DNA of 64,000 nucleotides, taken from a virus. Position 1 is the first letter of the stretch. Each line of letters begins with the position of its first letter. The DNA is taken from positions 1-64,000 of IMG/VR virus record IMGVR_UViG_3300049629_001293. One strand, given 5' to 3'. The position numbers and the translations under genes were made by a program. A model generated the notes under the pieces. The model searched no databases, was not told the DNA's origin, and worked only from the letters and a program-made list of their open reading frames with translations. Positions 46,990 through 63,632 of the stretch are shown here, one piece after another.

Positions 46990-48549
46990 TCAGTTCCCTT
47001 GCCTAACTACAGAATAGATAAAATCAAACATTTCTGGATCGTTCTTAGCTAGGTAAATAGGGTTCCTGTGCATTAATTCTAATCCCATTGATAAAACCTC
47101 TGTATTATACATATTACTCCCGTACACTTTCCCCATGTAAGGATGTATCCATTTATCAACCTTGGTAACTTCGTAATCTTCGTAATTAAGTGGATGTACA
47201 TCTTTTAATTTTACTATCTCCTCTCCGGCAGTTCTTCTATTATAAAAATTAAGCACCTCTTTGTGTATTAAAGGGGAACGATCCTCTATCCAATGCCCAG
47301 CTTCATGTATTAATGTTGCTTTCTCCGTGGTTCCCATGTCAATAGTCCCCGTTGGCCAGCAACAGCTTCTTTGTCCTTGTTTTATTTCACGGATAGACAA
47401 TGTACTGGTTAACCCTGGAATTTCAATCATTCGAGAAAGTTCTTCTATCCCATCCTGATATTCTTTTTTTCTCTTTTTATCTAAAACTGTATTGTTAGTA
47501 TTGATTTTTGTGGGATTATCCACATAGATTAATTTTCTGGCTTCTTGAAGAATTGCCTTAATTCTTTCGTTCGTCTTGGCTCCAGTGTAGTATTCAATGT
47601 TTTCATTTGTTAAAAATTGAGCTATAACCTTTTTAGGTAAAAATCGGGGTACGGGAGGGGAATTGTTTAAGTCTTCCTGTAATTTTAATAACTGCGCTCT
47701 TTTCCCTTGTGCTTCGATCATCAATGCGTCTCGTCTTCCCTTCCGTTGTTCCAATAAAATATCTAATTCTGCATCTTTAGCCTCTTTCTCCTTTCTTTCT
47801 TTCTCCCATTTCGCTCTAATCTGATCTGCTTTTATTCTAAGTTGTTCTGATATTGTTCTGAACTTCTCATCTACCTCATTAGCTTTTTTGAGACGTTCTT
47901 GTTCCTCTAGCATTACCTGTTTCTGTTTTTCTGATTTCTTTACTTCATATTCTTTCCTTTTTCTTTGTACTTCCTCCCAGTCCTTTATTAACAAGGGTTC
48001 TGTTATTTTCTTGAGTTCATCAGCTTTTTTAAGAAATTCTTTTTCTTCTTCGGGTAAAATACCTGGTTTCGTTGATCGTCTTAAATATTTTGCTCGTAAT
48101 TCGTTTAATTTAAAAAGCCTTTCCTGAGAAAAATCGTCCTGAGCATTGGCTCTGCAACTTTTCTTGATATTGATACAAATACTTCCACAATTATAGGAAG
48201 TTGGCTTTACACACTGGGCTTTCTCCCTTTTCGCTCCCCCTGCATCAATTCGGTAAGAATAACCTGCTGAGAAGTCTTCCCAATTCTTTAAATCAACACC
48301 CCGACTATCAATTCTAGGGGTGAATGGTTTATAAACAACCGACTTCCTGTTTATCTCAAAGGAAAACACACGAGATCTGGTTAAGTCCTTAAACCGCCCT
48401 GTTATCTTTTCATTCTCCAGGGTTCCAGGATCGAAATCTAGCACAATGACCGGAGCATTATAGGCAAATGACATTGACAGAATTTGACCTATTGCCAATC
48501 TCATCTGAGCTTCGGAAGGTGCCATGTTAGGGGCAAAAGATTGAACCAT
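46990..48549 (-). CDS. modular virion effector: shared N-module, Cys module, HExxH metallopeptidase
   Basis: 519 aa. Residues 9-110 are the shared N-module (APSEAQM, SFAYNAPVIVLDF, GRFKDLTRSRVFSF, then IDS, WEDFSAGYSYRIDA). The Cys module follows (C-x7-C-x3-C-x6-C with YNCGSICIN), then a long coiled coil. The C-terminal zincin has LIHEAGHWIE (zinc-binding HEAGH, 415-419) and a downstream EVLSMGLE likely to give the third ligand. Its last 110 residues align with the products at 48859 and 50022. Probably an injected protease; target unknown. Confidence 0.8.
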   Translation of the reverse strand: MVQSFAPNMAPSEAQMRLAIGQILSMSFAYNAPVIVLDFDPGTLENEKITGRFKDLTRSRVFSFEINRKSVVYKPFTPRIDSRGVDLKNWEDFSAGYSYRIDAGGAKREKAQCVKPTSYNCGSICINIKKSCRANAQDDFSQERLFKLNELRAKYLRRSTKPGILPEEEKEFLKKADELKKITEPLLIKDWEEVQRKRKEYEVKKSEKQKQVMLEEQERLKKANEVDEKFRTISEQLRIKADQIRAKWEKERKEKEAKDAELDILLEQRKGRRDALMIEAQGKRAQLLKLQEDLNNSPPVPRFLPKKVIAQFLTNENIEYYTGAKTNERIKAILQEARKLIYVDNPTKINTNNTVLDKKRKKEYQDGIEELSRMIEIPGLTSTLSIREIKQGQRSCCWPTGTIDMGTTEKATLIHEAGHWIEDRSPLIHKEVLNFYNRRTAGEEIVKLKDVHPLNYEDYEVTKVDKWIHPYMGKVYGSNMYNTEVLSMGLELMHRNPIYLAKNDPEMFDFIYSVVRQGN

Positions 48550-48557
48550 GATTCTAC

Positions 48558-48857
48558 TTAATAAACAATTTCAGACTCATCAACCACTTTCCCGTTAATT
48601 ACCAAAGGAGGAGGAGCAATAGGTTGATCCATCACTGTCCCGTCAAAAGTCTTCGCCAGTTCTGTTGCAATCAACCAATCGGGGTCGGGAGTTGCAGGGG
48701 AATTAAGCCAGAAGAAAGGCGAGTCAGGGTCTATGGCTGCCAATTTCTCCATTGCTAATACATTGTTCAGGATCGAGGCATAATGGGGCGTTGAGGATGT
48801 CCAAACTCCATTCTCAATAACTGCCACTACACCGTTGATTTTGACGCGATAAGCCAT
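48558..48857 (-). CDS. small virion-region protein
   Basis: 99 aa between two metallopeptidase effectors, 1 base from one and 8 from the other. Beta start (YRVKINGVVAVIENGVWTSS), then a Pro-rich end. No Cys or N-module. Could be a chaperone, immunity-like partner or minor virion protein; the sequence does not say which. Confidence 0.5.
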   Translation of the reverse strand: MAYRVKINGVVAVIENGVWTSSTPHYASILNNVLAMEKLAAIDPDSPFFWLNSPATPDPDWLIATELAKTFDGTVMDQPIAPPPLVINGKVVDESEIVY

Positions 48858-48858
48858 G

Positions 48859-50025
48859 TTAACCTCTTCTAACTACCGAATAAATAAAATCAAACATATC
48901 GGGGTCTTGTTTAGCGAGTGCGACTGGATTCCTATACATTAATTCTAAACCCATTGAGAGAATTTCCGTTGACTCGTCAGGATAAACTTTTCCCATATAA
49001 GGACGCATCCATTTATCAACCTTTGTTATTTCAGTATCTCTATACGATTTGATTCCGGTTGCGTCTCGCATTTTGACCGCTTTTTCTCCCTTTGTCCTGC
49101 GATTGTAAAATTCTACAACTTCTTTCTTTATTTCTGGGACGGAGTATTCTATCCAGTGACTTAATTCGTGAATAACTGTACCAGGGTCATCATTCCCCAT
49201 TGACACGGTTTTATCTGCATTATTATAATAACTTCTCTTATCTCCCTCTGGCAAGCCTTTGACATTAACCTTACTCGTTAAACCAGGAATTGACACCATT
49301 AAAGACAGTGATTGAATCCCCTCATCCCATCGGGATTTATTCTTTTTATCTTTTACTTTAACATTAAGATTTGTAGGTAAGTTGACTTGAACTAATTTCC
49401 TGACTTCACTTGAAAACCTTTTGAAGTCTTCTGATGCAGCCTCTAATTCTCTTAATTTACCTTCACTTAAAATATCAGCCAATGGCGGATTCGTTTTTAA
49501 TAGTTTATCAATTTCTTTCTTTGTTCTTTTTATTAATTTAGCTAAGTATTTCTCTGGCTTTCCATCGTCAATAGCCTTTATAATAGCACTACCTTTGTGT
49601 TTAGAAGGATCAAATTTAGATATAAAATCCTCTGACATTTTATCTAATCGTCCCCTAACTTCTTTCGCTTCTTCTAATAACCTAACTTTTCTTTGTTCTG
49701 GGGTTTCTGGTTTATTTATTGGTTTCTCTTTAGCAAGCAAGGGAATGTCGGGGGTGAAATCATTGATTGACTTTAAGTTGTCGACACCAGGAGGAATAAT
49801 AGGATTGGATTTAATAGCCTTTTCTTTTGCAGACCTTCTACTAACGGCGGTAACGTAATCAATTCCTATCGCTTTTAGCTTCTCAAGCCTATCCTTTGAC
49901 CTAGAATCATTCGGAACTATCCTGCAATTTTTCTTAACATTAATGCAAGATAGACCACAATTATAGGAAGTAGTCTTTACACATTGAGCTTTCTTTTCCC
50001 TCTTGTCTTCTCTATATTTAATCAT
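48859..50025 (-). CDS. modular effector: Cys module plus HExxH metallopeptidase
   Basis: 388 aa. Begins directly with the Cys module (AQCVKTTSYNCGLSCINVKK), without the N-module. A Lys-rich helical middle and a zincin domain follow: VIHELSHWIE (286-290 as HELSH) and TEILSMGLELMYRNP. Start overlaps the stop of the paralogue at 50022 (ATGA), so the pair is a tandem duplication. Zinc-peptidase activity is expected from the motif. Confidence 0.78.
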   Translation of the reverse strand: MIKYREDKREKKAQCVKTTSYNCGLSCINVKKNCRIVPNDSRSKDRLEKLKAIGIDYVTAVSRRSAKEKAIKSNPIIPPGVDNLKSINDFTPDIPLLAKEKPINKPETPEQRKVRLLEEAKEVRGRLDKMSEDFISKFDPSKHKGSAIIKAIDDGKPEKYLAKLIKRTKKEIDKLLKTNPPLADILSEGKLRELEAASEDFKRFSSEVRKLVQVNLPTNLNVKVKDKKNKSRWDEGIQSLSLMVSIPGLTSKVNVKGLPEGDKRSYYNNADKTVSMGNDDPGTVIHELSHWIEYSVPEIKKEVVEFYNRRTKGEKAVKMRDATGIKSYRDTEITKVDKWMRPYMGKVYPDESTEILSMGLELMYRNPVALAKQDPDMFDFIYSVVRRG

Positions 50026-51122
50026 TTTCTCCTCACAACACTATAAATAAAATCAAACATTTCAGGATCATTCTTGGCTAGATATACCGGATTCCTATAC
50101 ATTAATTCCATCCCCATTGATAATATTTCAGAAGCATTTTTATATTCTTTGCCCATATAAGGATTTAACCATTTATCAACTTTTGTAACCTCATCATCTC
50201 TATAGTTCTTGTTTCCTGTAACTTCGCTCATCTTAACGGTTTTTTCCCCTGCCGTTCGCTTTTCGTAAAAAGATTCAACTTCTTCTCTAATCCCTGGCAC
50301 TTTCTCCTCTAGCCAATGACTCATCTCGTGAACTACAACAGCAGGGTCAGGATTCCCCATATAAACATTATTTGTTTTCGGTTTGTAATAGCTTCTCCCT
50401 TTTCTTTCTGGCGGAGCATTAACTATATTAACTGGAGCATCCAGCCCTGGAATTGAGATCATTTTTTGGAATACCTCAACACCTTTTTGATGGGATCTAG
50501 GATTTCCGGTTTTGACGGATGAATTCAACTTAGTTGGACTATCCACTTCTACCAATTTTCTAGCCTTCTCTAAAAAAGCCTGAGCTTCTTTGTTCGAGGT
50601 ATTAAACACTCTCTCCGCCCTTGCTGATAGCCTCTCAGCCTCTTGTGGGTCTTCTTGCGACAAACCCTTGATTTTCTTACTGTAAAGAAGTTTATTCTTT
50701 TTAAGTTGCCGAACGGGGTTCTCCGATTCAAGTAACGAGGCAGTCCCTTTCTTCGTAACAGATGTTTCGCTAACGCCCTCGTATAATTTCAGCAGTTCCT
50801 CTCGCTTGCTTGCAGCCTCCGCTTTTAGTCGTGCTTTCCTGCGAGCTTGATTGATAATCTTCCTGTCCACTGCCAACTCGGACGCTTCTGTTTTTCTGGC
50901 TTTTTCTACCACGCCAACCAATTCATCGGCCGCGGCTTTTTGCCTTAAAGACCTTGCTGACTTCGATTTTGATTGAGCATAGAATTGAGAGATTTGTTTT
51001 AACCTCTGAAGACGCGATCGCCCAAAAGATTCAGAAGGGACTTGCCGGCAATTTTTAGAGACGTTAATACAGGCGTTGCCACAGTTATAGGATGTTGGCT
51101 TTTCGCATTTGGGCTTCTTCAT
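50022..51122 (-). CDS. modular effector: Cys module plus HExxH metallopeptidase
   Basis: 366 aa. Starts with the Cys module (PKCEKPTSYNCGNACINVSK), a basic coiled coil, then the zincin: VVHEMSHWLEE (HEMSH, 265-269) and SEILSMGMELMYRNP. Ends FDFIYSVVRRK, as in the two paralogues. The missing N-module means it either rides with another protein or is a shortened copy. Confidence 0.78.
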   Translation of the reverse strand: MKKPKCEKPTSYNCGNACINVSKNCRQVPSESFGRSRLQRLKQISQFYAQSKSKSARSLRQKAAADELVGVVEKARKTEASELAVDRKIINQARRKARLKAEAASKREELLKLYEGVSETSVTKKGTASLLESENPVRQLKKNKLLYSKKIKGLSQEDPQEAERLSARAERVFNTSNKEAQAFLEKARKLVEVDSPTKLNSSVKTGNPRSHQKGVEVFQKMISIPGLDAPVNIVNAPPERKGRSYYKPKTNNVYMGNPDPAVVVHEMSHWLEEKVPGIREEVESFYEKRTAGEKTVKMSEVTGNKNYRDDEVTKVDKWLNPYMGKEYKNASEILSMGMELMYRNPVYLAKNDPEMFDFIYSVVRRK

Positions 51123-51237
51123 TTCAGAACATCACCATTAAGTTTATTGGGTTACTTTTTTGTATTGATTTTTCTTCGAGATAAAGCATAATTAATAGTA
51201 GGAATTAACTATGTTTTATTTGGGATTGAGTCGTCGC

Positions 51238-52653
51238 TTAAATTTCTTCTACTTCGACATATATTGTGCCATCTTTTTTTGTGACATTCTTAACCTTATG
51301 TTTTGCACTTTTTGGTACAACAACTTCGGACACCCACTCATAACCCTCTGGGGTAAGGTTTTGAATAGATGCACCCGTTTTATTTATCGCCTTAAGCACA
51401 ACACGTTGTCCAGCATCACCGGCTCCTCTAAAACCAGCAAATTTTTCGGCAGTCTTGGGATCGGTAGTCCATGAAGCATGGGCACCTTGATTGTCTAATA
51501 CCCCATCTTTGTCCCCTTTTAGCCAATTCATAGCTTCATCTTCTGAATCAAAATTCATCCCCCTCTGTATCTCTCCCTTGTATGGGGTCGAATTTGCAAG
51601 ATATTTAGAAATTAAATTTGCTCCTACGTTTGGTCTATTTTCTTTTTGTGATCTTCTAATTGCTTCGGAATTATAAACCCACGATCTGACATATTTAACA
51701 GTCGCCTTAGCCTCGCCTTCTGTTATTTCAATTCCTTTCTTCCTGGCCATCTCATAGTATTCTTGTGGGTTTTTAGGTGTACTTTCATGAGTCCCATCAC
51801 CAATCAAATTTGTTGGCTCAGGCTTCTTGGTCTCTGGTTCAGGTTTTTTAGTTTCTTCCTTTGGTTTAGATGCTTCTTTCTTTGGTTTAGATGCTTCTTT
51901 CTCTGGAGATTGAGTGGAACTTGGCGCTGTCGTTTTTTGGGATTTTATGTAGTTAGCAACACCATCTTTTATTTTTGATAATTGAGTGCCACTAACCCCG
52001 GCTTTCGTTGCAGCTTCTTCTAGTTTAAGAACACTAACTCCTGCTTTCTTTGCCAAACCTTCTATCTGAGCAATGGAAAGAGTTTTTGCTTTTTCTTTCG
52101 TCTGTTTTTCTGCTGGTTTTTTCGTTTCAGCATTAGGATCTGTTTTAGCTGTTTTAGTTACTTCTGATGCCTTGGGTTTTTCTGTTACTTTGGTTGTTTT
52201 TGCATAATCCTTCCCTACTTCCTTTAATTTACTAAGCCTCTCCTGTGAATTACTATCTTCCGTGCTGGATTTGCAGTTATTCTTAATATTGATACAGGCT
52301 TTCCCACAATTATACGCTGTCGGTTTAACACACTGTGGCTTCTTATTACCTCCTATCCCCGCATCTACCCGATAGGAGTAGCCACTAGAGAATTCCTCCC
52401 AGTCATCTACGCTATCCATCCGTCCTGGGGTGTAAGGTTTAAAAGTGACTGATTGCCCTTTGATATTAAATGAAAAAATACGGGGACGGGTTGCATCCTT
52501 GAATTTGCCTTCAAACTCCCCTTGATCATTTACCGAAAAATCCAATATCACCACCGGAGCATTATAGGCAAATGGTTGAGACAGAGTTTGGGCGATCGCC
52601 AACTTCATCTGTGGCTCGGTTGGCGTGGCATCTTTTCTAGTCGTTGAACTCAT
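51238..52653 (-). CDS. modular virion effector: N-module, Cys module, ADP-ribosyltransferase
   Basis: 471 aa. N-module (9-98, with PFAYNAPVVILDF, ATRPRIFSF, GRMDS and GYSYRVDA), Cys module (108-127), a helical region at 190-237, a Lys/Pro linker, and an ADP-ribosyltransferase domain from about 290. The R-S-E residues are Arg364 (EIQRG), Ser394 (ASWTT) and Glu443 (SEVVV). The position two before the catalytic Glu is Val, not the Glu/Gln of arginine- or Rho-type enzymes, so the target may differ from the paralogue at 52665 or activity may be lost. Confidence 0.82.
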   Translation of the reverse strand: MSSTTRKDATPTEPQMKLAIAQTLSQPFAYNAPVVILDFSVNDQGEFEGKFKDATRPRIFSFNIKGQSVTFKPYTPGRMDSVDDWEEFSSGYSYRVDAGIGGNKKPQCVKPTAYNCGKACINIKNNCKSSTEDSNSQERLSKLKEVGKDYAKTTKVTEKPKASEVTKTAKTDPNAETKKPAEKQTKEKAKTLSIAQIEGLAKKAGVSVLKLEEAATKAGVSGTQLSKIKDGVANYIKSQKTTAPSSTQSPEKEASKPKKEASKPKEETKKPEPETKKPEPTNLIGDGTHESTPKNPQEYYEMARKKGIEITEGEAKATVKYVRSWVYNSEAIRRSQKENRPNVGANLISKYLANSTPYKGEIQRGMNFDSEDEAMNWLKGDKDGVLDNQGAHASWTTDPKTAEKFAGFRGAGDAGQRVVLKAINKTGASIQNLTPEGYEWVSEVVVPKSAKHKVKNVTKKDGTIYVEVEEI

Positions 52654-52664
52654 GGTTAAATCTC

Positions 52665-54614
52665 CTATACTTCCTCAGCTTCAACAATAATCCGTCCGTT
52701 TTCTTCCTTGACACTTTTAACTCGATGGCGAGTGTCTTTTAGCACCATAACTTCGTCTTCTTCTTTGATCCTGCTCAAATTCCTAATAGACACACCTGAT
52801 TTATTAATGGTTTTAATGACGACGGGATACCTTTTTTCCTCAATAAAGAAATCGTCCGAAAAATTCTTTGCTGTTTTAAGGCTAGATGACCAAGAGGCGT
52901 GAGCACCTTGATTATCTAGCACCCCATCCTTGTCGCCTTTAGTCCAGTTTAAAGCCTCCTCTTTGGTTGCAAAATGAATCCCTCGGTAAACTTCGCCTTC
53001 GTATGGGGTTGAGTTCCTGACATAATTAGAAATCCGATTGGCATCCTCGTTTTCTTCCCCTGCTTTTTGATCGACTCGGATGTCAGTGGCATCCCTTGTC
53101 CATTTATAGATGGCTGTAGTGGTGGCTGCTGCCTCCTTCTTAGAAATATTTACTCCTGCTTTTTCCAGTGCTTCACGATACTCATCGGGGGTTGAGGGCA
53201 TGGATTCGTGGTCGCCCTTCCCTACTAAATTAAGGTTTTTAGGTTTTTCTTCGGGTTGTTTAACCGCCTTTTCCTCGGATTCTTTTTGGGTTTTAGTTAT
53301 TTCTGGTGATGGTTCAGGCATTTTCTTTTCCTTGTTAGGAGAAACTTCTTCTGTCTCAACGATCAAAACACCATCTTCGTACACAACCTTTTTAACCCGA
53401 TGGCGAGTGTCTTTGATGACCACTACCTCATCTTCCGTATCAAAGGTGCTTAAATTTTTGATAGAGGCACCTGACTTATTAATTGTTTTGATAATGATAG
53501 GTTGTGATGTCTCATCGAACGCATTGTCAACAGCAAATTCTCTCGCTTTATCCCAATTAGAAGTCCAAGATGCGTGGGCATTTTGATTGTCCAATATTCC
53601 GTCTTTGTCTCCTTTTGCCCACTCCAGTGCTTCTTCTGTTGATTCAAGGGAGATACCTCGGTAGATTTCACCTTTGAATGGCGTTGAACTCTTGACGTAA
53701 TCAGTGATCCGGTCGGCAACGAGGCTGTATTTCCCTGCTTTTTGAGATTCTCTAATATAAGAGGCATCTTCTGTCCACTCTTTAACGGCTCCGGTAATCT
53801 TTATAGCATCGTCATAAGAGATGGGATTACCCGATGCTTTCATTGCTTCAAAGTACCCGTATGCGTCGCCAGGAACGGACTCATGATCCCCCTTCCCTAC
53901 TAAATTAAGAGGCTTGGGTTCGTTTTCAGGTTCTTTAAGGGTTTCTGTTTGATCTTCACTCTTTACAGCTATTTTAGCAGCTTTCTTCCCTTCTTCAAAG
54001 TCAGATTCTTTCCCTTTTTTGCTAGGGGGAATTTCCTTTATTGTTTCTGGGATTTTATCTATTTCTGGTGGTTTTTCTACCTCTTTCTTGGTTTTTGTAG
54101 TTGATTTAGGATTGGATTTCTTGGCTTCTTTAGCGTAATCAATACCAGCAGCTTTCAATTTCTCTAAACGATCCTTTGACTGAGCGTCATCGGGGTTTGA
54201 TTTACAATTATTATTAATATTTATACAGGCTTTCCCGCAATTATATGCGGTGGGTTTAACGCATTGGGGTTTCTTTTTGTCTCCTGCCTTGCCTTTTGCT
54301 TTAGCCGTTTTAGCCTTGGCATCAAAACGGAAGGAATAGCCTAATGAGAACTCCTCCCATTGTTCTACTGCATCGCCCGAATCCATCCGTCCTGGGGTAT
54401 AAGGTTTGAAGTTAACGGTATTTCCATCTAACTCAAAATCAAACACCCTCGGACGGGCAGAATCCTTAAATCTCCCAGATATTTTACCCGTGTCATCTAC
54501 CTTAAAGTCCAGCACGTCCACTGGGGCGTTATAGGCAAAAGGAAGAGCAAGAGTCTGGGCGATCGCTGCTTGCATTTGTACTTTTGTTGGGGCTGTTTTA
54601 GTCTCTATGCTCAT
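52665..54614 (-). CDS. modular virion effector: N-module, Cys module, tandem ADP-ribosyltransferases
   Basis: 649 aa. N-module (8-99), Cys module (Cys118, 126, 130, 137), a charged linker, then two homologous ADP-ribosyltransferase domains. The first has Arg319 (IYRG), Ser349 (SWTS) and Glu394-Asp-Glu396; the second has Arg544, Ser574 (SWSS) and Glu619-Asp-Glu621. Both keep the ExE pattern of arginine-specific toxins. Each domain is preceded by the same GKGDHES segment, showing a duplication of linker plus domain. Expected to modify host proteins on entry. Confidence 0.85.
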   Translation of the reverse strand: MSIETKTAPTKVQMQAAIAQTLALPFAYNAPVDVLDFKVDDTGKISGRFKDSARPRVFDFELDGNTVNFKPYTPGRMDSGDAVEQWEEFSLGYSFRFDAKAKTAKAKGKAGDKKKPQCVKPTAYNCGKACININNNCKSNPDDAQSKDRLEKLKAAGIDYAKEAKKSNPKSTTKTKKEVEKPPEIDKIPETIKEIPPSKKGKESDFEEGKKAAKIAVKSEDQTETLKEPENEPKPLNLVGKGDHESVPGDAYGYFEAMKASGNPISYDDAIKITGAVKEWTEDASYIRESQKAGKYSLVADRITDYVKSSTPFKGEIYRGISLESTEEALEWAKGDKDGILDNQNAHASWTSNWDKAREFAVDNAFDETSQPIIIKTINKSGASIKNLSTFDTEDEVVVIKDTRHRVKKVVYEDGVLIVETEEVSPNKEKKMPEPSPEITKTQKESEEKAVKQPEEKPKNLNLVGKGDHESMPSTPDEYREALEKAGVNISKKEAAATTTAIYKWTRDATDIRVDQKAGEENEDANRISNYVRNSTPYEGEVYRGIHFATKEEALNWTKGDKDGVLDNQGAHASWSSSLKTAKNFSDDFFIEEKRYPVVIKTINKSGVSIRNLSRIKEEDEVMVLKDTRHRVKSVKEENGRIIVEAEEV

Positions 54615-54715: not shown

Positions 54716-54716
54716 A

Positions 54717-56075
54717 CTATTTAGTTACTTGAGCAAAAGACCTCATTTTGCCCGCCGCGTTTTGGATTCCGTCGCCATATCTTTTATTGATATCAGAACC
54801 AGGAGGATATTCCCCTCTGCCTACGCCATTAAGAGTAAACAAATCATTCTCGTGTAAGTCAAGCATGGCTCTATTAAAATCACCCCGACCAACCTTATCC
54901 CCCATTGCGTCACGGATCTTGTATATAGGGACAAGACCTCCATGATTCCCTTCTTTGTCTATGTCTTTCAATAGTGTAGATATCTCTTTCTGTATTTCTT
55001 TTTGATCAGACATCTGCCCTGGTTTGCGCTTAAATTCTTGTTTTGCTTTTTCAATAGCTTTTGTGTCTTTTATAACAAAAGATTGACGATTCCTGTTGAA
55101 CATATCGGTAATTCCGTCCGAAGGATCAAATTGTCCGTCTGGATTCATATCCTCTTTTTTTAACGTTCCAGTTTCTAGTTCGATTCCCTCGTCATCTGTA
55201 CCTGCCTTTAGTGTCCATTTATCAAAGTCTTCTTTACTCACCCTGTCTTTTAATTCATGTCTCATTTGTGCTATGTTTACTCGATCTCCTTGTCCTAACT
55301 CAAACGCAACCCTAGCTGCTTCTTTGACAATCTCCTTTTTAAAGGTGTCATAATCCTTTATTGGTTCGTCACTATAAAAGGGATTTGCCTTGGATTTAGG
55401 ACTAGATTTAGCTTTGGGTTTAACTTCGGGCTTTGGCTCGATCTTGGCTTCTGGTTCTGCCGTTTTCTTTGTTGCCAATTTTTGACCAGTAGGCTTTTTA
55501 CTCTCTGCTTTAGGCTTGGTTTGGGGCTTTTCTACAGTCGTTTTTGCTGTTTTCGCGTAATCTTTCCCAATTCCTTCTAACTTTTTAAGCCTGTCTTTTA
55601 TTGTGGGATCATTGGTTTTGATTTTGCAGGTTTTCATGATGTTGATGCAAGCTGCACCACAATTGTAAGCTGTCGGCTTAACGCATTGAGGCTTTTTTTT
55701 GCCACCTACTCCCGCATCAACACGGAAGCCATACCCTGCTGAAAATGCCTCCCATTCTTGGACATCTTCCTCTGATTCTAAGCTGTCCATTTTGCCAGGT
55801 TTATAAGGCTTATAGGCTACGGACTCCCCATCTAGGGTAAAGGAAAACACCCGTGGACGTGCCGCATCTTTAAATACTCCGGTAATATTGCCATTCTCGG
55901 CAACATCAAATTTAAGCACAACAACTGGGGCGTTATAAACAAAATCCATTGACAAGGTTTGGGCAATAAGTAACCTCATTTGAGCTTCGGTTGGTGCAGT
56001 ACCTCCGCCACCATCCCCAACTAATACTTCATCTTCGTCAACACGGAACAAAGAACTTGGTTTTGTTTTTAACAT
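54717..56075 (-). CDS. modular virion effector: N-module, Cys module, tandem winged helices
   Basis: 452 aa. N-module (26-125, with SMDFVYNAPVVVLKF, AARPRVFSF, GKMDS and GYGFRVDA), Cys module (YNCGAACIN), a Lys/Pro/Ala linker, and a C-terminal half with two winged-helix-like segments: NIAQMRHELKDRVSKEDFDK and PIYKIRDAMGDKVGRGDFNR, each followed by a beta hairpin. A DNA-binding cargo would bind incoming or host DNA. Domain call by pattern. Confidence 0.7.
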   Translation of the reverse strand: MLKTKPSSLFRVDEDEVLVGDGGGGTAPTEAQMRLLIAQTLSMDFVYNAPVVVLKFDVAENGNITGVFKDAARPRVFSFTLDGESVAYKPYKPGKMDSLESEEDVQEWEAFSAGYGFRVDAGVGGKKKPQCVKPTAYNCGAACINIMKTCKIKTNDPTIKDRLKKLEGIGKDYAKTAKTTVEKPQTKPKAESKKPTGQKLATKKTAEPEAKIEPKPEVKPKAKSSPKSKANPFYSDEPIKDYDTFKKEIVKEAARVAFELGQGDRVNIAQMRHELKDRVSKEDFDKWTLKAGTDDEGIELETGTLKKEDMNPDGQFDPSDGITDMFNRNRQSFVIKDTKAIEKAKQEFKRKPGQMSDQKEIQKEISTLLKDIDKEGNHGGLVPIYKIRDAMGDKVGRGDFNRAMLDLHENDLFTLNGVGRGEYPPGSDINKRYGDGIQNAAGKMRSFAQVTK

Positions 56076-56096
56076 GATTTTACCTTTTATAAATAG

Positions 56097-56157
56097 AAAC
56101 CTTGTGAGTTAATCACAAGTAAAAACCTTGTGAGTCAATCACAAGTAAAAACCTTGT
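56097..56157 (-). terminator. tandem palindromic hairpins at the head/effector boundary
   Basis: CTTGTGA-GTTAA-TCACAAG (56101-56119) and CTTGTGA-GTCAA-TCACAAG (56127-56145), with half of a third copy (26-base period). On the - strand each stem is followed by GTTTTTAC or similar, a weak terminator. The last codons of the gene ending at 56139 are part of the repeat. Confidence 0.6.
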
Positions 56158-56558
56158 GAGCTAATCTTCTCAACTAACTCCATGTCCCACGTTACGATAT
56201 TTTTAGTTAGTGAGACTAAGTTACAAACAACTCCATCGGGAGGGTAAAATGTGGTGTCTGCTCCGACAATATAGTCAACCCCCTCACCCTTCAATTGTTC
56301 TTCTAAATAACGCCGTGAAATCCCTTTGACGGAATAGGATTTAGTTATTCCCTCCACTGAGCTTAGATTTTCAATCCCTTCCTTACTTGGGAATTGATCT
56401 TGAATAACCGGAGATGGGGTAATCTCCAGATACTCGTAATCATTGCCCAATCTTGTGCGAACGACAAGGCTTCGAATATTGGGATTGCCAAATCCCCCCG
56501 CGAGAGGGGAGATCCGGTCTCTTAGGGCTATCATTTGCTCAACAAAGGATTGACTCAT
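56139..56558 (-). CDS. putative head-tail joining or tail terminator protein
   Basis: 139 aa, following the connector genes. Alpha/beta pattern with N-terminal helix (FVEQMIALRDRISPL) and a strand-rich centre. Position after DUF4054 suits a neck or tail-terminator protein. Overlaps the upstream stop (ATGA). No family signature. Confidence 0.5.
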   Translation of the reverse strand: MSQSFVEQMIALRDRISPLAGGFGNPNIRSLVVRTRLGNDYEYLEITPSPVIQDQFPSKEGIENLSSVEGITKSYSVKGISRRYLEEQLKGEGVDYIVGADTTFYPPDGVVCNLVSLTKNIVTWDMELVEKISSQGFYL

Positions 56559-56740
56559 TTCTTCTCTTTGGGAGTATAAGCAGCCTGTGGGTGGTCTGGC
56601 TTGTCTAACTTCTTATTGATTTCCTGTAACTCAACATAAATTGCTGCCATTGCTTGCAGTTCTGGCGAGGCGGGAGCCGCTATTCCAGCAGAAGTAACTC
56701 GACCATTATCAACGGTGAAATCAGGGAACTGTACTTTCAT
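56555..56740 (-). CDS. small virion-region protein
   Basis: 61 aa from ATG 56740, ATGA-coupled to the DUF4054 gene; the longer frame lies inside that gene. Short hydrophobic-aromatic start, then a helix (ELQAMAAIYVELQEINKKLD) and a basic tail. Function unknown. Confidence 0.55.
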   Translation of the reverse strand: MKVQFPDFTVDNGRVTSAGIAAPASPELQAMAAIYVELQEINKKLDKPDHPQAAYTPKEKK

Positions 56741-57072
56741 AAAACTAAAATAGGGGGAGTGAAGATAGTATTGCGGAGGTGGATATATTGCCTCCCGTAA
56801 GTTGTCAAAGACCAATCGTTCTCGGAGCCAGAAGGGGTAGAACTTCCTGGCCCGGATGCGATTCCCGTGACACTAGAGGCAATATCCGCCTGTTGAAACC
56901 AATCAATGCTGATTCGATGGGCAGCAATCAACATAATTCCATCCGTTCTCTTGGGATCAGCCCAACCAGCACAGTAATTATTCTCGGCAAAGTTTAAACT
57001 GTATTGAATCACAGAAGATTCGACTACAGCGAACTGAGGATAAACCGCTAAAAAATCGGAAGGGAGAACCAT
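56737..57072 (-). CDS. DUF4054 head-tail connector protein
   Basis: 111 aa. Begins DFLAVYPQFAVVESSVIQYS, then YCAGWADPKRTDGIMLIAAH, the layout of DUF4054 and similar adaptor proteins: YPxF motif, helix, W, then L-x-x-AH. These form the ring under the portal. Position right after the capsid genes agrees. Confidence 0.72.
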   Translation of the reverse strand: MVLPSDFLAVYPQFAVVESSVIQYSLNFAENNYCAGWADPKRTDGIMLIAAHRISIDWFQQADIASSVTGIASGPGSSTPSGSENDWSLTTYGRQYIHLRNTIFTPPILVL

Positions 57073-57075
57073 TTA

Positions 57076-57555
57076 TTACCCACGGATGTTCATAGTATTA
57101 ACCGATTTGATATTCTTGACTTGCTCCGCTATTGCCTTAGAAATAGCGGGACGATCTTCTCTTTTCTCGGATCGTTCTAGCCAATCAATATCACTAGAAT
57201 TGCGAATTAGATCTAGGGCATCTTTTTCAATATAATCAAGGGTTGTTTCAGTAGGAAACTTCCCTTCCTCTAGGGTGGGAGAGATTACTCTGAATGCTCC
57301 GCAATTAACAAGTTGCAATCCGAGGGGATGCCGAACAATATAGTCATAGTCCTCGTCGGGAAGCTCCAAATTAGTCCCAGGCAGAATCCAACTCCCCCGT
57401 GTTTCCACCGCATCCAACGAGGTTTTTTTGGTTCCCCCACGAGTAATAGGACGGGAGAAACGGATCGGCGAAGTGATAGCCTCCACTGATATTCCATAGG
57501 GAATGCGTGGATTATGAGGATTTAGCTTTGGGTCAAAGATGATAGTTTTAGACAT
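57076..57555 (-). CDS. virion-region protein
   Basis: 159 aa between major capsid and connector. Beta-rich N-terminal two thirds (SWILPGTNLELPDEDYDYIV) and a charged helical end. Likely minor head protein by position. No recognised family. Confidence 0.55.
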   Translation of the reverse strand: MSKTIIFDPKLNPHNPRIPYGISVEAITSPIRFSRPITRGGTKKTSLDAVETRGSWILPGTNLELPDEDYDYIVRHPLGLQLVNCGAFRVISPTLEEGKFPTETTLDYIEKDALDLIRNSSDIDWLERSEKREDRPAISKAIAEQVKNIKSVNTMNIRG

Positions 57556-57557
57556 TT

Positions 57558-58511
57558 TTATTCGGGTAATACTACAATGTGCATGGAGAATGGGCGTTTG
57601 AGGTCAATTCCCCCAAACTTAAACTTGGCACCACGCCAGAAAGAATCAACACCAATGGGACGAGTATCAGTCCACTTTAATGGTTGATAAATCTTAGCAG
57701 AGACTTTTTTGGGATCTCGACGGAAAGCCTGAATAAAGCGGGTAGGAGCCAAACCAATCGACTCTAAATATTCGGGAGCCATCTCGGACACCACACCGAC
57801 TTCTTTGATGTTGGAGTTGACTTTTAAGAAGTGTTCTAACACCGTGCGATCTAAGGCAGATGTACCAATTTGAATGATATCCGAGGAGAGGTGTTCGTAA
57901 GTTTCCGAATCCATCAGCAAAGTGTCAGGCTTCTCTCGGTTATTGGTCAACCGAGTCGGGGCATTCACACAATCATTCAACACACTCAGCTTTTGTTGAG
58001 ATGTTGCAGACCCGTTTAAAGGGAAGGGAGCATAAGACCGCAGGGCTTGGGGGTGATTCAAAAAACCTGGCATCCCTGTTTCTAAATCTCCGTTTGCCAC
58101 CAACTGATTGATTTTTTGTTGTGCGGCTTCTTGAATTGTCCAGATTTTGTCCTCCTCAATGCTCTCGCCCATTCGACTGACAGCCGCGATATCATCCTCG
58201 GAAACGCTATAACCTTGTCCCCATTTATGGATCGGCATCTTCATCTCGCCATAGACCAGTTCCACTTCGGGAAGGTCTGTGGTGTAGTTTCGGATTAATT
58301 TGAACTGCCCGACGTGACGGAGCCACCGATATCCCCAGGTTTTTGCCCAGGGCTTGTTTTGGATGTTGAGAGGGCAAATGACTCCAGCAGCGAAAGGATA
58401 GTCCGCAAGATCGAACTCCTTATCTACTTGAGCTTCTAAGTCCATCAGGGTGCCAAAGAACGTCCCGATTTCATCAGCATCCAACCTTGTAGTCCCGGAA
58501 AAGTTCATCAT
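57558..58511 (-). CDS. major capsid protein (DUF2184 type)
   Basis: 317 aa. Features of the HK97-fold DUF2184 capsid family: N-terminal helix, the segment WGQGYSVSEDDIAAVSRMGE, a long helix with QQKINQLVANGD, then PDTLLMDSETYEHL and the beta-rich C-terminus. Lies between the cement gene and the connectors as expected. The extreme N-terminus contains TTRLDA, an R-x-D motif also abundant in the scaffold. Confidence 0.85.
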   Translation of the reverse strand: MMNFSGTTRLDADEIGTFFGTLMDLEAQVDKEFDLADYPFAAGVICPLNIQNKPWAKTWGYRWLRHVGQFKLIRNYTTDLPEVELVYGEMKMPIHKWGQGYSVSEDDIAAVSRMGESIEEDKIWTIQEAAQQKINQLVANGDLETGMPGFLNHPQALRSYAPFPLNGSATSQQKLSVLNDCVNAPTRLTNNREKPDTLLMDSETYEHLSSDIIQIGTSALDRTVLEHFLKVNSNIKEVGVVSEMAPEYLESIGLAPTRFIQAFRRDPKKVSAKIYQPLKWTDTRPIGVDSFWRGAKFKFGGIDLKRPFSMHIVVLPE

Positions 58512-58530
58512 AGTTTAAGTTCTTTCTATA

Positions 58531-59361
58531 TTAAGGAACATTGAAGCCGATTAAAACGCACACCGCGCCAGTGCTAGTGACCACAGGGGAACATTTGAAC
58601 TCAGCCTTCGCGGAGATATTAATTGTACCACTTGTCACTTTTGTTGCTTTCCCCTCGTGTCCCGCAGCAACAGAGACGTAGACGGCATCATTGATTGTGA
58701 TATCCGTCTCAACACATTCAACCCAGATCCCTGACGATTCCCCTGTCCGGTCAACCACGTCCATCACATCCTGATAGGGGTAAGTTGTCCCACTATAGTT
58801 TGCACCTTGATAAATCAAAGGTTGCATTTCGATGTCTTTGACGATTCGAGTAATCCCTAAGATTACGTCAGTGGTAGCAGTAGGAAGTCCTGCAACTTTG
58901 GGGTCGGTTTCGGTGTTTGCTCTGGCAACAAACCGACCGAATGGTACGGGGAGAGGAATAATCATCGCCGTGGTTACAGTTGCCGTTAAACTAGCACCAG
59001 TAACTACCAGGATGTTCTCGATACCATATTCCAGTGCCGTGAATAGCACGTTATTCCCACTAACACTTGCAATCCCCCGTCGCCCAAAAGCAGGGTTTAC
59101 TCGGATTGCATTCAATAAACCAGCTTGCAGTTCCGCTTGAGTGGCACTAGCATCGGTTGTAAAACGTGCCGTGCCTAGTCCGTTGTTTAACCTGACGGTA
59201 TATACAGTGCTAGAAGCAGGGGAGGCAGGAATCGCCAGAGTCCAGACCTCTTTAACAGCATTCTTTATAGAAACAAGGGCTTTGACTCTCGGAAAATTAA
59301 TAGATCCCTCGCCCATGCCAGGAGTCGCCCGATCAAATTGAAGATTGTAGTTGTACCGCAT
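58531..59361 (-). CDS. capsid cement/decoration protein
   Basis: 276 aa, beta- and Thr/Val-rich (TVYTVRLNNGLGTARFTTD), with a C-terminal part (WVECVETDITINDAVYVSVA) that matches the pattern of gp24-like structural cement proteins. Lies directly between protease/scaffold and major capsid. Shares one base with the scaffold stop region. Confidence 0.75.
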   Translation of the reverse strand: MRYNYNLQFDRATPGMGEGSINFPRVKALVSIKNAVKEVWTLAIPASPASSTVYTVRLNNGLGTARFTTDASATQAELQAGLLNAIRVNPAFGRRGIASVSGNNVLFTALEYGIENILVVTGASLTATVTTAMIIPLPVPFGRFVARANTETDPKVAGLPTATTDVILGITRIVKDIEMQPLIYQGANYSGTTYPYQDVMDVVDRTGESSGIWVECVETDITINDAVYVSVAAGHEGKATKVTSGTINISAKAEFKCSPVVTSTGAVCVLIGFNVP

Positions 59362-60896
59362 TATCTAGTAACCCCCATGCGTGTTTTTCCTATCGTTAAA
59401 GGCTGCTTATAGGCGTGCACCCGTCGTCTTTCCCCTTCGGTGAGTTCATCTCCGTAGGTAGATTGAGCAGGTCTTTTGAGCATCGAATCAAGGCGATGGG
59501 AGAACTCCTCTGAGTCTCCATCGTCTCCATCGTCTCTATCTTCTTCCTCCTCGTCATCCCCTTCTTCTTTATCACCTGGATCGGTGGGGGAAGAATCGTA
59601 ATTCTCCTGAACGTAGGCAAAAACCCCGTCTACATAAGAATCGGATCGGAACGTCAAGTCCATATTGGGTTCGATTTCAGCTAACAAAGTGCGTTTGATG
59701 TCGCTAGTAGAGAAGCTACTATCAAACCGAGCGTCAGAGAACCCTGGCAACAAACTGTCGGCTTCCTTCCATATCGCCAAAAGATCCCCGACCGAATCAC
59801 CCCGACAAGCACTCTCATCTTCGTCGTTGCTATCAACACGAGGCTTGGACTTTTTTTTCTTTTTGGAAGTCGTAGTTTCTTCTTCCTCTGCAACATCCCA
59901 TTCTTCCATCATTTCTTCTTCTTCATTGTCCTCCTCTTCCATCATTTCTTCATCTTCGGGAACGGGAGGCATCATTTTCTTTTTGCCTCCATCAACGCGG
60001 ACGTACTGCCCCATGTCATTCCGGTAATAACCTAATTCACCAAGGACATTATCGGCATTGTCTACGATGATCTCTAGGTTATCTAACCGGAACTGGTAAT
60101 TTTCCCGTGCGGCTTCTAGCTTCCGGTTCTCCCGACTCGTAGTATCAAACCGTGTAACAAGCGAATCGTGGCGTTCCTTTAATTCTTTCAATTCACGGAA
60201 TCGAGTACCGCTAATGGAAGCGAAAGATTCAGGGATTCCTGAATACTCAACTCCATCGCATCTAACTATTGCCATACGCTGTTCATTATCTCCATTATCA
60301 TTGGTTTTGTTAGGGTTACTAGGGTTTTCGATGACTTGCCCTGCGACAGCTTGTCCAATCCCCGCAGCACTATCTAATCGGAGGCGAACATCTCCCCCTG
60401 CCCTTCCTCGGCTCGTCAAAGCCAAATGGTTGGCACGGACATTAATCTGTTCCCTGTCATAGTGTTGCCCATTCCACACCCCTTCCCCTTGCTTGATGTC
60501 GCAGGTATATCCAGCAGATAGTTGTTCCTTTTCCCTTGCATCAATTAGGGCGATCGCCTTAGCATCAAAAAACGACACCAAGCCTTTGATCACCCCTTCA
60601 GTCTTGTCATAATAAGCAGAAGAATCAGTCATCCCTACCGTGTAATCCTTGTAGCTTTCGCTATTAAGAAGTCCAACATAGGGATGTTCTATCACCAGGG
60701 GGAGGAGTTTGAAACTCTCTACTGTGGCCAGTTCTGCATTGGTTTCCGGTCTCCTGAGTTCGTGGACTATGGAGCCATCAGGCTGACGATACTCCAACAC
60801 CCCGTCACAACAAAAAGACCCCTCACAATGGAGACGACCATCCTCAGTTCTTATTACCCTAAATTTAGTTGGAGCATCGAGCCTGATTTCAACCAT
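59361..60896 (-). CDS. DUF2213 prohead protease/scaffold
   Basis: 511 aa. Residues 1-180 carry the DUF2213 domain: LPLVIEHPYVGLL, EQLSAGYTCDI and NVRANHLALTSRGRAG, with candidate Ser and His of the head-maturation protease. From about 220 a coiled coil is followed by strongly acidic runs and a C-terminal helix, typical of a fused scaffold. R-x-D motifs (RLDS, RVDS, RFDS, RLDS) recur about nine times, suggesting self-cleavage sites. Confidence 0.82.
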   Translation of the reverse strand: MVEIRLDAPTKFRVIRTEDGRLHCEGSFCCDGVLEYRQPDGSIVHELRRPETNAELATVESFKLLPLVIEHPYVGLLNSESYKDYTVGMTDSSAYYDKTEGVIKGLVSFFDAKAIALIDAREKEQLSAGYTCDIKQGEGVWNGQHYDREQINVRANHLALTSRGRAGGDVRLRLDSAAGIGQAVAGQVIENPSNPNKTNDNGDNEQRMAIVRCDGVEYSGIPESFASISGTRFRELKELKERHDSLVTRFDTTSRENRKLEAARENYQFRLDNLEIIVDNADNVLGELGYYRNDMGQYVRVDGGKKKMMPPVPEDEEMMEEEDNEEEEMMEEWDVAEEEETTTSKKKKKSKPRVDSNDEDESACRGDSVGDLLAIWKEADSLLPGFSDARFDSSFSTSDIKRTLLAEIEPNMDLTFRSDSYVDGVFAYVQENYDSSPTDPGDKEEGDDEEEEDRDDGDDGDSEEFSHRLDSMLKRPAQSTYGDELTEGERRRVHAYKQPLTIGKTRMGVTR

Positions 60897-61028
60897 TTCT
60901 CAATACAAAAAACAAATAATTCTTTTTAAAGAATAACGCACCCTATCAGTCATTTAAAGAGGGTGCAAAAAAATAATTTCTATACAAGAAAATAGACTAA
61001 AATTAAATCAATGATTTAGATATAAATA

Positions 61029-61403
61029 ATGACTATTACAAAAAGAGAGTATCCTTCTAAGAAAACGTTAGGATCTGGTGCATTGGCTCCCTATCGCGCT
61101 CTCGGTCGGTCAATTCGACGAGATCTTATAAATGCAAATCTTGGAATGATGGAATTTAGCGAGAAAAGTGGGTGGGATTGGCAGACAATTCGACGGATTT
61201 TAATGGGGGAGCGGCGGACGGATTTTATAGAACTGTTGATTATCGCTTCGTTAATTTCTGAGGATCAATCGGAAACGGAAAGACTGATCCTCACCTGGAC
61301 GAAGGAAACTTTGAAAATCATCGAGGAAGGAATCCCCCAAGAAATTAACCCAGGTCTTGTTGATAATCTTGTCGAGATTAACGAAGAGATCCCTTTAGAA
61401 TAG
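61029..61403 (+). CDS. helix-turn-helix regulator inside the virion operon
   Basis: 124 aa, the only + strand gene in the virion region. Cro/CI-like helix-turn-helix (GRSIRRDLINANLGMMEFSE then WDWQTIRRILMGERRTDF). Divergent from the scaffold gene across a 132-base AT-rich gap, and its end overlaps the gpG-like gene. Could set the ratio between the two halves of the late operon. Confidence 0.7.
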   Translation: MTITKREYPSKKTLGSGALAPYRALGRSIRRDLINANLGMMEFSEKSGWDWQTIRRILMGERRTDFIELLIIASLISEDQSETERLILTWTKETLKIIEEGIPQEINPGLVDNLVEINEEIPLE

Positions 61404-61797
61404 CAATAATCTCCTGACGATTCCGTTGGCTTACTCCTAAAAATTGACGTTTAGGCATTTTCTTAGTGCCTTTTTGTAAATAGGAGCCATAGGGCAATGG
61501 AGTCCCTACCTCAACCCTTCCTTTTTCAATCCGATATCGAATAGAAGATCGCAACAATCCTTGGCGTTGTAGTATTTGCATAATAAAACCCCGACTAGCC
61601 TTGTATTTAAGGGTTGATGGGGCTAGGTGTTCCCATTTCTCCCCATAAGGACTCTGTTCCTTCTGGAAGTTCTCATCGGTTGATGCCACCATGAACTGCC
61701 CAACTTTATGCAGTTCAGGTGTGAGGTTCTGAAACTTTCTGATTAATTTATTGAGGTAATTTTGGACTTGGTTAGCAACGAATTTTAGGGATAGCAT
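61378..61797 (-). CDS. Mu gpG-like virion morphogenesis protein
   Basis: 139 aa. Matches the phage virion morphogenesis family pattern: STDENFQKEQSPYGEKWEHL, then QGLLRSSIRYRI, VEVGTPLPYGSYLQKGT and the ending RQFLGVS. Such proteins act in head or tail assembly. Overlaps the convergent regulator by 26 bases. Confidence 0.8.
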   Translation of the reverse strand: MLSLKFVANQVQNYLNKLIRKFQNLTPELHKVGQFMVASTDENFQKEQSPYGEKWEHLAPSTLKYKASRGFIMQILQRQGLLRSSIRYRIEKGRVEVGTPLPYGSYLQKGTKKMPKRQFLGVSQRNRQEIIAILKGSLR

Positions 61798-61903
61798 AGG
61801 GTTAAAAGTAAAATATATCCTAATTTTAATATAAAAAAGGAAGGCTTTAACACCTCCTCCATCTTACCGTTTCAGTTACCCTCTGCACCCTCAAAACCCT
61901 CTT

Positions 61904-62041
61904 TTAATATTGTTTTGACTTTTGACTGTTTTCTGTCTTTTGGGTAGCTAACCGATTCTTGTCTTCAAGTAGACGATTATACGCTACAACCTCATCAAGA
62001 ACTCGGTTTTTTTCCAAATCGGTAAGTTTTTTGTAGTTCAT
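61904..62041 (-). CDS. small coiled-coil protein
   Basis: 45 aa, ATG at 62041 overlapping the end of the upstream effector by 47 bases, with AGG seven bases before it. One amphipathic helix (DEVVAYNRLLEDKNRLATQK). Support is modest: coding-like helix and coupling. Confidence 0.4.
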   Translation of the reverse strand: MNYKKLTDLEKNRVLDEVVAYNRLLEDKNRLATQKTENSQKSKQY

Positions 62042-63632
62042 CTAGTACCTGTTCATATACTTCTTTTATTATTTTAGCAGAACCTTTTTGATTATTGGCT
62101 AATTTTTCTGCTGCTTGATTCAAAAGTGTCGAAACTTTTCCTGTTAGCATTTTTTCTTGATCAAATGCCCCTAGTGCTTTTTCTGCAATATCAGCAATTT
62201 CACTTGACTCCTCTACGTTGATTTTATTTCCTGCTTTGGCTAAATCTGAGGCAGCTTTTGACTTCCCAACAGTTGAGAATAAACGCTTTTCCCTTTGCAA
62301 CTGTCTTTTTATAGCAGATTGAATCTGGGCTTTTTCAATAGCCAAAGAGCGAGATTCAGGGGAAAATCCCAACAAATCAAATAAGCCACCCTGAGATTCG
62401 GTTATTGTTGGGGCATTTGTTACCATATCGGACAATTCCTCTATAGTGTCATTAGTGATCTTTTTACCTTTTTTCTCTTCTTTCTCCACTAACTCTAGTA
62501 AGTCTTGTTGTTGGCGGTGATCTTTTATTTTAGAACCAATTACAACAGCCCTTTGTTCGGGGATTTGACCCTGTACCACTCTATTAAATAGAGAGTCACT
62601 TAGACTAGCTAAAGCCAGCCCGTCCTCAGCTATTTTCTCCCTCATGGGTACGCCTTTTTTCTCTAGGTCTTGTTTTGTTAAACCAGAATCTCTAAAGAAT
62701 TTAGCTGCATCCTGAGCATTGCCTCGACCTTCTGCGATATTTGTTAATGCACCAATAGCACGGGCTTCTTCTGGAGATTTAGCATCAATTAATTTTACGG
62801 TGACGGATTCAGCATTTAGTTTTTTAGCTAATGCAAGTCGGTTGTGACCGTTCACGACATAAACACCGCCATCTTTGGGATCTTGCCAAACTTGAAGGAT
62901 GCCACCCAGGTTAGAATCCCACGTTTTAACTCCCGACAAACTCCCGACTTCTCCCGACTTGGTTTGCTCTCCAATGATCTTGTATTGAAATCTTTTAGGG
63001 TCAACCTGGATTTTACTGGGGTCGGCTTCTGCTATTCCTGAAGACAAGACTTGATCCGCCCCCAACCGAGAAGCAGCATCATCCCACTTTCCTGCTGGTT
63101 TCGGTGTCAGCTTGTTATTCTCCTGCCTCTTAGCCGGATCATCCTGAGCCTCCTTAAACCCTCCCGCCATAGCTTTAACTTTGTCCAGCTTTTCCTGGGA
63201 AGGTTTATCAGGGGGGTCTGACTTGCAGTTCTTATTTAAGCTAATACAAGCCTTCCCGCAGTTATAGGAAGTATTGCCACACTTAGGTTTTTCCTTCCTA
63301 ACGGTCTTAGCTACATCGAATCGGTAGCAATACCCCTTTGAGTAGTCTTCCCACGCCACGGGGTCAACGTCGAGGCTGTCGGTTCGTTTCCAGGTAAACG
63401 GTTTGAAGGCAATGGAATCCCCAATCTCAAACTCAAAAACACGGGATCTAATGGCGTCCTTAAACCGTCCTTTGATGATGTTTTTGTTGCCTACTTCAAA
63501 ATCCAGAACGATAACCGGAGAGTTGTAGGCAAATGGCATCGACAAGACTTGAGAAATACCAAGTTTCATCTGCACTTCTGTTGGGGCAGCATCAAAGCTA
63601 GGGGGATTTTGACGGTTTAAGGTAGTGACCAT
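61995..63632 (-). CDS. modular virion effector: N-module, Cys module, ParB-like domain
   Basis: 545 aa. N-module (16-108; SMPFAYNSPVIVLDF, GRFKDAIRSRVFEF, KRTDS and GYCYRFDV), Cys module (118-136, one residue shorter at the first spacing), then a ParB/sulfiredoxin-like domain with GGVYVVNGHNRLALAKKL (256-272). A DNA-binding-like helical region follows (DSLFNRVVQGQIPEQRAVVI), then a coiled coil. It precedes the capsid genes, where many phages encode MuF-type proteins fused to effectors. Likely acts on DNA or nucleotides. Confidence 0.8.
   Translation of the reverse strand: MVTTLNRQNPPSFDAAPTEVQMKLGISQVLSMPFAYNSPVIVLDFEVGNKNIIKGRFKDAIRSRVFEFEIGDSIAFKPFTWKRTDSLDVDPVAWEDYSKGYCYRFDVAKTVRKEKPKCGNTSYNCGKACISLNKNCKSDPPDKPSQEKLDKVKAMAGGFKEAQDDPAKRQENNKLTPKPAGKWDDAASRLGADQVLSSGIAEADPSKIQVDPKRFQYKIIGEQTKSGEVGSLSGVKTWDSNLGGILQVWQDPKDGGVYVVNGHNRLALAKKLNAESVTVKLIDAKSPEEARAIGALTNIAEGRGNAQDAAKFFRDSGLTKQDLEKKGVPMREKIAEDGLALASLSDSLFNRVVQGQIPEQRAVVIGSKIKDHRQQQDLLELVEKEEKKGKKITNDTIEELSDMVTNAPTITESQGGLFDLLGFSPESRSLAIEKAQIQSAIKRQLQREKRLFSTVGKSKAASDLAKAGNKINVEESSEIADIAEKALGAFDQEKMLTGKVSTLLNQAAEKLANNQKGSAKIIKEVYEQVLDELQKTYRFGKKPSS

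Follow-up and report, generated by a model that had tools for sequence, protein, structure and literature searches.

Why does a phage head operon encode a row of proteins with related front ends and unrelated C-terminal domains? This question is raised by a window of 64,000 nucleotides, the whole stretch of DNA that was analysed, which comprises bases 1-64000 of the 98,464-base viral record IMGVR_UViG_3300049629_001293 and encodes seven such proteins. Judging from its sequence, the virus is a 98-kb cyanobacterial virus and a relative of Planktothrix phage PaV-LD, the closest isolated phage, with major capsid proteins that are 98% identical. The seven genes are long open reading frames (ORFs) on the minus strand and are named here after their first coordinate (g46990, g48859, g50022, g51238, g52665, g54717 and g61995). 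We consider it rather probable that their products are precursors of head cargo, composed of an N-terminal module (N-module) for targeting, head-protease sites, a cysteine module (Cys module) and a variable effector. The packaging of diverse effectors by phages on common carriers is, in general terms, an established concept (PMC5512222; PMC5576092; PMC3012670).

Exchange of C-terminal domains on a common carrier

The N-module is common to five of the window proteins (g46990, g51238, g52665, g54717 and g61995), and their alignment with the PaV-LD homologues contains 20 invariant columns. Matches to the PaV-LD paralogues reach E-values of 1e-30 to 1e-103, far beyond chance. An earlier reading of this DNA, made without database searches and referred to here as the sequence-only reading, had described these five proteins with their common landmarks, and all seven genes are present where it had placed them, with two variants of the landmark FAYNAPV-x-VLDF (FVYNAPVVVLKF in g54717 and FAYNSPVIVLDF in g61995). 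It had also described the Cys module, which is indeed found in all seven proteins, with four cysteines and one glycine invariant in 14 aligned sequences and a first spacing of C-x7-C, shortened to x6 in g61995. In the AlphaFold2 (AF2) model, the N-module forms one helix and a four-stranded beta meander with a confidence score (pLDDT) of about 90 in the core. Neither sequence search nor fold search gave a relative of the N-module in the PDB, and the carrier matched no Pfam family; phrog_16619 and phrog_33618 match window proteins.

A scan of IMG/VR with the N-module, a search which the sequence-only reading had proposed for phage genomes, gave 43 loci, in which the C-terminal groups are ADP-ribosyltransferase (ART), HExxH, coiled/DUF, ParB, two winged-helix-like types, GNAT and a short ParB-like type. 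Complete N-modules are followed by the Cys module within about 4-13 residues; the exceptions to this order are stand-alone N-module ORFs such as 083R of PaV-LD, which carries its own set of N-module/Cys-module proteins. ORFs that encode an N-module or N-module-like domain alone, with neither a Cys module nor an effector, lie at L003:28160-28471 (PaV-LD), L186:4366-4794 and G002:18633-19103.

The domain swapping, which the sequence-only reading had seen as interchangeable C-termini in a phage operon, is real and larger than first described, and its occurrence within the head operon is strongly supported. Thirteen of the 140 pairs with N-modules at least 95% identical show no detectable C-terminal similarity (complete proteins), and unrelated C-termini are found even on N-modules that are up to 100% identical. 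Protein g61995 and PaV-LD 061R share 80.7% identity over the first 181 residues, with no match detected beyond. At the DNA level, the locus L041:4330 is a chimera: as far as the Cys module it is essentially identical to g54717, and from there on it shares 97-100% identity with g51238. The further swaps g61995/L011 and g51238/L039 likewise diverge inside the Cys module in the DNA. Among the window paralogues, conservation is mostly higher in the short DNA around YNCG (up to 88%) than in the DNA that follows, a pattern that fits the Cys module as the probable crossover point between paralogues. The swaps show that very close phages exchange effectors and that the breakpoints fall within a single short module; this would account for variation of cyanophages in early host-directed proteins. 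With a front end that appears to serve as a detachable tag for loading enzymes into the head, the virus can swap proteins that are probably delivered into the host.

The swaps also bear on a reading that takes the proteins as minor components of head structure or assembly, whose C-terminal domains act in assembly by DNA binding or proteolysis and are not delivered. Their location in the head operon, the PHROG label "minor head protein" and the PaV-LD annotations "virion structural protein" and "minor virion protein" speak for it, as does the proposal that the metallopeptidases (MPTases) of polyvalent proteins process proteins before packaging (PMC5512222). However, close relatives should not exchange structural parts for ART, ParB, GNAT and winged-helix domains, and ART and GNAT are host-modifying enzyme types, so we regard such a purely assembly-related role as unlikely.

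Predicted head-protease sites and the DUF2213 protease

The motif [RK]xDS, treated by the sequence-only reading as a landmark of the N-module, is conserved in 55 of 59 N-module proteins, but is better read as a head-protease site; a second conserved site, R-x-D-A, between W-E-x-FS and the Cys module had been overlooked and is present as R-x-D in 59/59. Both look like cleavage sites of a head protease. They flank the W-E-x-[FY]S segment and lie in linkers that are disordered in the structure model, where the pLDDT of the modelled N-module protein drops under 50 at precisely residues 83-86, which hold RTDS, and 102-117, which hold the second site and the linker. In-frame tandem duplications are found exactly at the predicted cleavage sites in L040:4724-6292 (PFVARPFVARPFVARIDS and YSYRSGYSYRFDT).

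The candidate protease is encoded at 59361..60896 on the minus strand. It has a DUF2213 head maturation protease domain (PF09979, E = 6e-29, 101.6 bits vs. a cut-off of 22; phrog_530) and an acidic scaffold-like C-terminus, is located near the capsid gene and contains eight R-x-D-[SA] motifs. The major capsid protein (57558..58511, minus strand; PF09950, the family of the T1 and TLS capsid proteins) contains a single R-x-D-A at residue 9 (58476-58487), which is a predicted cleavage site. In PaV-LD, the protease-scaffold protein contains nine R-x-D-[SA] motifs compared to 0.63 expected (14-fold) and the effectors nine compared to 1.87, whereas the 43 other proteins together contain one compared to 4.16; its capsid protein has one near the N-terminus. 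The motif is also enriched in the proteases of T1, TLS, the Aphanizomenon phage CL131 and Yersinia phage vB_YenM_126.

A literature search for the cleavage site of DUF2213 proteases found none, and the decisive N-terminus was provided by a paper on phage TLS, which carries a protease of the same family. The mature TLS capsid protein begins with ASDMGIW according to Edman sequencing, and the authors inferred from an alignment that 45 residues are removed (PMC11447400). The TLS capsid gene itself reads GAKND/ASDMGIW (the slash marks the cut) with ASDMGIW at residue 33, and the only [RK]xD[SA] of the protein falls exactly at the mapped N-terminus, after K-N-D. The mapped N-terminus supports by experiment that a phage with a protease of the DUF2213 family cuts after [RK]-x-D.

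The association of the motif with DUF2213 was examined in contigs found only by the Cys pattern and then searched for DUF2213. R-x-D lies at most 18 residues before the Cys module in 7/7 DUF2213-positive contigs and in 2/25 testable negatives (Fisher p = 1e-5), a value to be read with the facts that the contigs are not independent, that the idea was formed on PaV-LD, CL131 and TLS, and that some of the R-x-D occurrences had been seen beforehand. A search for the capsid family PF10124 in the Cys-module contigs gave no match. In Portal_Mu-type phages, [DE]F[AS] before the Cys module was considered as a second protease signature and dropped, as neighbouring head genes are not enriched in it.

Given these signs of head-protease cleavage at its landmark sites, the N-module probably serves as a propeptide that targets the capsid and is then removed. 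The sequence-only reading had taken it as the part that targets the protein into the capsid, which is plausible, although it is better read as a propeptide cut off by DUF2213 at [RK]xD[SA], between D and S or A. In the proposed mechanism, the N-module would direct the protein into the assembling head, where the DUF2213 protease would cut [RK]-x-D/S and R-x-D/A in the flexible linkers on either side of W-E-x-[FY]S and so remove the N-module. The mature product, consisting of the Cys module and an effector (ART, HExxH peptidase, ParB-like, winged helix, GNAT or others), would be kept in the head, ejected with the DNA and act on the host, possibly as a toxin. Recombination of paralogues in the Cys module would re-arm one carrier with another effector. 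If this is true, proteins could be loaded into phage heads with the N-module as a tag. The order of carrier module, [RK]xD[SA] site, Cys module and variable domain gives a sequence rule for finding candidates of head-carried phage proteins. The analysis also predicts, in testable form, where DUF2213 head proteases cut, those of T1-like phages among them.

Several points weigh against this mechanism. Two of the seven proteins, g48859 and g50022, have no N-module, so there may be a further way into the head besides the N-module; should the label "virion structural protein" that GenBank gives to PaV-LD 081R, the orthologue of g48859, rest on data, head entry would not depend on the N-module. The DUF2213 phages Rhizobium RHph_Y17 and Erwinia Faunus show no motif enrichment, so the [RK]xD specificity is not universal in the family, and several of the seven DUF2213 contigs are CL131-like and thus not independent. 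The residue after the predicted cut (P1') is V or T at 11 of the 59 second sites, and other phages have K, R or D at this position. That this position is not strictly S or A, and that the motif also occurs inside the tape measure, would be expected if the R-x-D motifs were conserved for folding or binding (e.g., of scaffold or portal) without cleavage, and the N-module stayed attached in the virion. On the other hand, the exact match with the Edman-mapped TLS cleavage, the enrichment in the protease itself, the low AF2 confidence at the sites and the association with DUF2213 argue for cleavage, which leaves conservation for folding or binding as an improbable explanation.

The Cys module as a wider family

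As the Cys module lacks a conserved stretch for a direct alignment scan, the lookup in IMG/VR was carried out with a DNA pattern. Among the matches listed, the Cys module follows portals of PF06074, PF05136 and PF06381 and precedes ParB, ART, HNH, HExxH, J-domain and other domains; the same effectors are found elsewhere attached to portals or to proteins of head morphogenesis. Most of its occurrences in sequenced genomes are in short proteins, of which many begin like a signal peptide, and in long phage-like cyanobacterial proteins, so that it is specific neither to PaV-LD nor to phages. It was not found in one 50-kb stretch each of Mic1 and Nodularia 2AV2. Its occurrence in exported proteins suggests a disulfide-stabilised fold, with a metal site as the alternative. 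The view of the sequence-only reading that it is a mere docking or metal site finds no support in that form: the module is a widespread small cysteine domain, which also follows portals of three families, occurs in small secreted cell proteins and is the place where paralogues recombine. In the form CKxGxxCGxxCIxxxxxC (genome loci L187-L266), the Cys module is part of many short proteins of Proteobacteria and other groups that look secreted or lipoprotein-like; no described family was identified for the module.

In CL131, Cys modules are present in gp044, gp045, gp047 and gp048, located between the capsid block and the tape measure. Protein gp048 (L004:42705-48140) has 1811 residues and five Cys modules (one degenerate), which alternate with alpha/beta-hydrolase-like GHSAG domains, and R-x-D-A stands directly before several of the Cys modules, so that the protein resembles a chain of cargo units made for separation by cleavage. 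In gp048 and in other phages, Cys modules are preceded by a domain with homology to the N-module (profile-profile probability 97%, E = 1.2e-10). An unexpected type of effector occurs at L186:2856-4397, where an N-module-like domain and a Cys module are joined to a DnaJ J-domain (PF00226, E = 2.7e-9).

The missing N-module of some paralogues would be compatible with late intracellular effectors, serving host take-over or the exclusion of rival phages, which are only co-transcribed with the head genes and are not virion cargo. However, the same effectors are, together with the Cys module, covalently joined to portals of three families, and head-protease motifs stand at the module borders, both of which make a purely intracellular role highly improbable. 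For the head-cargo reading, a more general form can be proposed tentatively, although we would not yet bet on it: the Cys module may be a general phage "effector socket" across unrelated phages, which joins head proteins (three portal families or a cleavable N-module) to interchangeable effectors and is cut just in front by the phage's own head protease, making injected cargo recognisable from sequence.

Comparison with known systems

The T4 head protease gp21 removes the targeting part of the internal proteins. These form a highly diverse, proteolysed set in which the capsid targeting sequence alone is conserved (PMC3012670). The window family resembles the injected T4 internal proteins and Alt in that diverse, putatively injected proteins have one common N-terminal part with a probable role in head targeting, a likeness of scheme. 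In contrast to T4, the carrier is a folded domain of about 100 residues with a Cys module, the protease belongs to DUF2213 with the predicted specificity [RK]xD/[SA], and a single operon encodes as many as seven paralogues that carry enzyme domains.

Polyvalent proteins are encoded near packaging genes, contain ART, ParB, metallopeptidase, inorganic pyrophosphatase (InPase) and GNAT-type domains, and their packaging and injection have been predicted (Iyer et al., 2017; PMC5512222). Comparable effectors lie beside the portal-terminase genes here, namely ART, an InPase-portal fusion and ParB-like, with GNAT in relatives. Polyvalent proteins have 2 to 15 domains per polypeptide; the window proteins usually have one effector type, with two ARTs in g52665, and some relatives add both coiled-coil/DUF and ART. 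The layout here differs in its fixed carrier, mostly one effector per gene and predicted head-protease sites. The words Planktothrix, cyanophage, cyanobacteria and cysteine were not found in that paper by word search. MuF polymorphic toxins combine a fixed head-associated N-terminal part with variable C-terminal domains and are encoded near portal genes (Jamet et al., 2017; PMC5576092), a paper in which a word search found neither cyanophage nor cyanobacteria. The window family likewise has variable C-terminal domains on a conserved N-terminal part, and the HExxH domain of g50022 is also C-terminal in head morphogenesis or minor head proteins of other phages. However, no MuF domain is among the Pfam or PHROG matches of the seven proteins, and a MuF origin was rejected for this reason. 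A small immunity gene directly downstream is a further mark of MuF toxins. By analogy, the system would work like the T4 internal protein/Alt scheme with the effector repertoire of polyvalent proteins and MuF toxins, yet it is not MuF. The labels phrog_16619 and phrog_33618 name families without a mechanism, module swaps or cleavage sites.

The seven proteins and their surroundings

The ParB-like, ART and HExxH C-termini claimed by the sequence-only reading are backed by profile or motif. Gene g61995 (61995..63632) encodes an N-module (63306-63632) with RTDS at 63375-63386 and RFDV at 63312-63323, a Cys module (63225-63281) and a ParB-like domain (about 62100-63026), which matches the ParB region of portal-fusion proteins and retains NGHNR (62838-62852). 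In g54717 (54717..56075; orthologue 078R in PaV-LD), the N-module (55707-56075) with KMDS (55782-55793) and RVDA (55713-55724) and the Cys module (55626-55685) precede a tandem winged-helix-like C-terminus (54720-55385), predicted by an AF2 structure model with two H-E-H-H-E repeats and a mean pLDDT of 80. Its nearest PDB folds are mostly winged helices, none of them significant, and there is no profile match; the claim of a tandem winged helix rests on this model. Gene g52665 (52665..54614), which matches phrog_16619, encodes an N-module (54312-54614; RMDS 54378-54389, RFDA 54318-54329), a Cys module (54204-54263) and two ART domains (53343-53909 and 52668-53225; PF01129, 26.1 bits vs. a cut-off of 22.3), and g51238 (51238..52653) an N-module (52354-52653; RKDA 52627-52638, RMDS 52411-52422, RVDA 52360-52371), a Cys module (52273-52332) and one ART domain (51241-51807).

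The remaining three have HExxH, which is conserved in 13 homologues; a sequence search gave no PDB relative. In g50022 (50022..51122), the Cys module is N-terminal (51048-51107) and the motif of the peptidase-like C-terminus lies at 50316-50330; in g48859 (48859..50025), the Cys module is near the N-terminus (49924-49983) with HExxH at 49156-49170. Gene g46990 (46990..48549) encodes an N-module (48235-48549; RIDS 48304-48315, RIDA 48241-48252), a Cys module (48154-48213) and HExxH (47293-47307). In PaV-LD, the annotated start of 079R (L003:23657-25525) lies inside the N-module and the upstream in-frame stretch contains stop codons, which may reflect a frameshift or a truncated gene.

Upstream of the seven genes are a portal gene (family PF06381) and a putative large terminase gene, whose PaV-LD counterparts are named portal and terminase; the region between these and the tape measure holds the genes of the DUF2213 protease and the major capsid protein as well as a neck gene and the seven genes. 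At its C-terminus, the portal (L001:4091-6085, about 66091-68085 of the record) is fused to an inorganic pyrophosphatase-like domain (PF18823, E = 3e-26), which is already known as a cargo domain of the polyvalent type. A 99-residue ORF at 48558-48857, between two HExxH genes, could encode an immunity or assembly partner.

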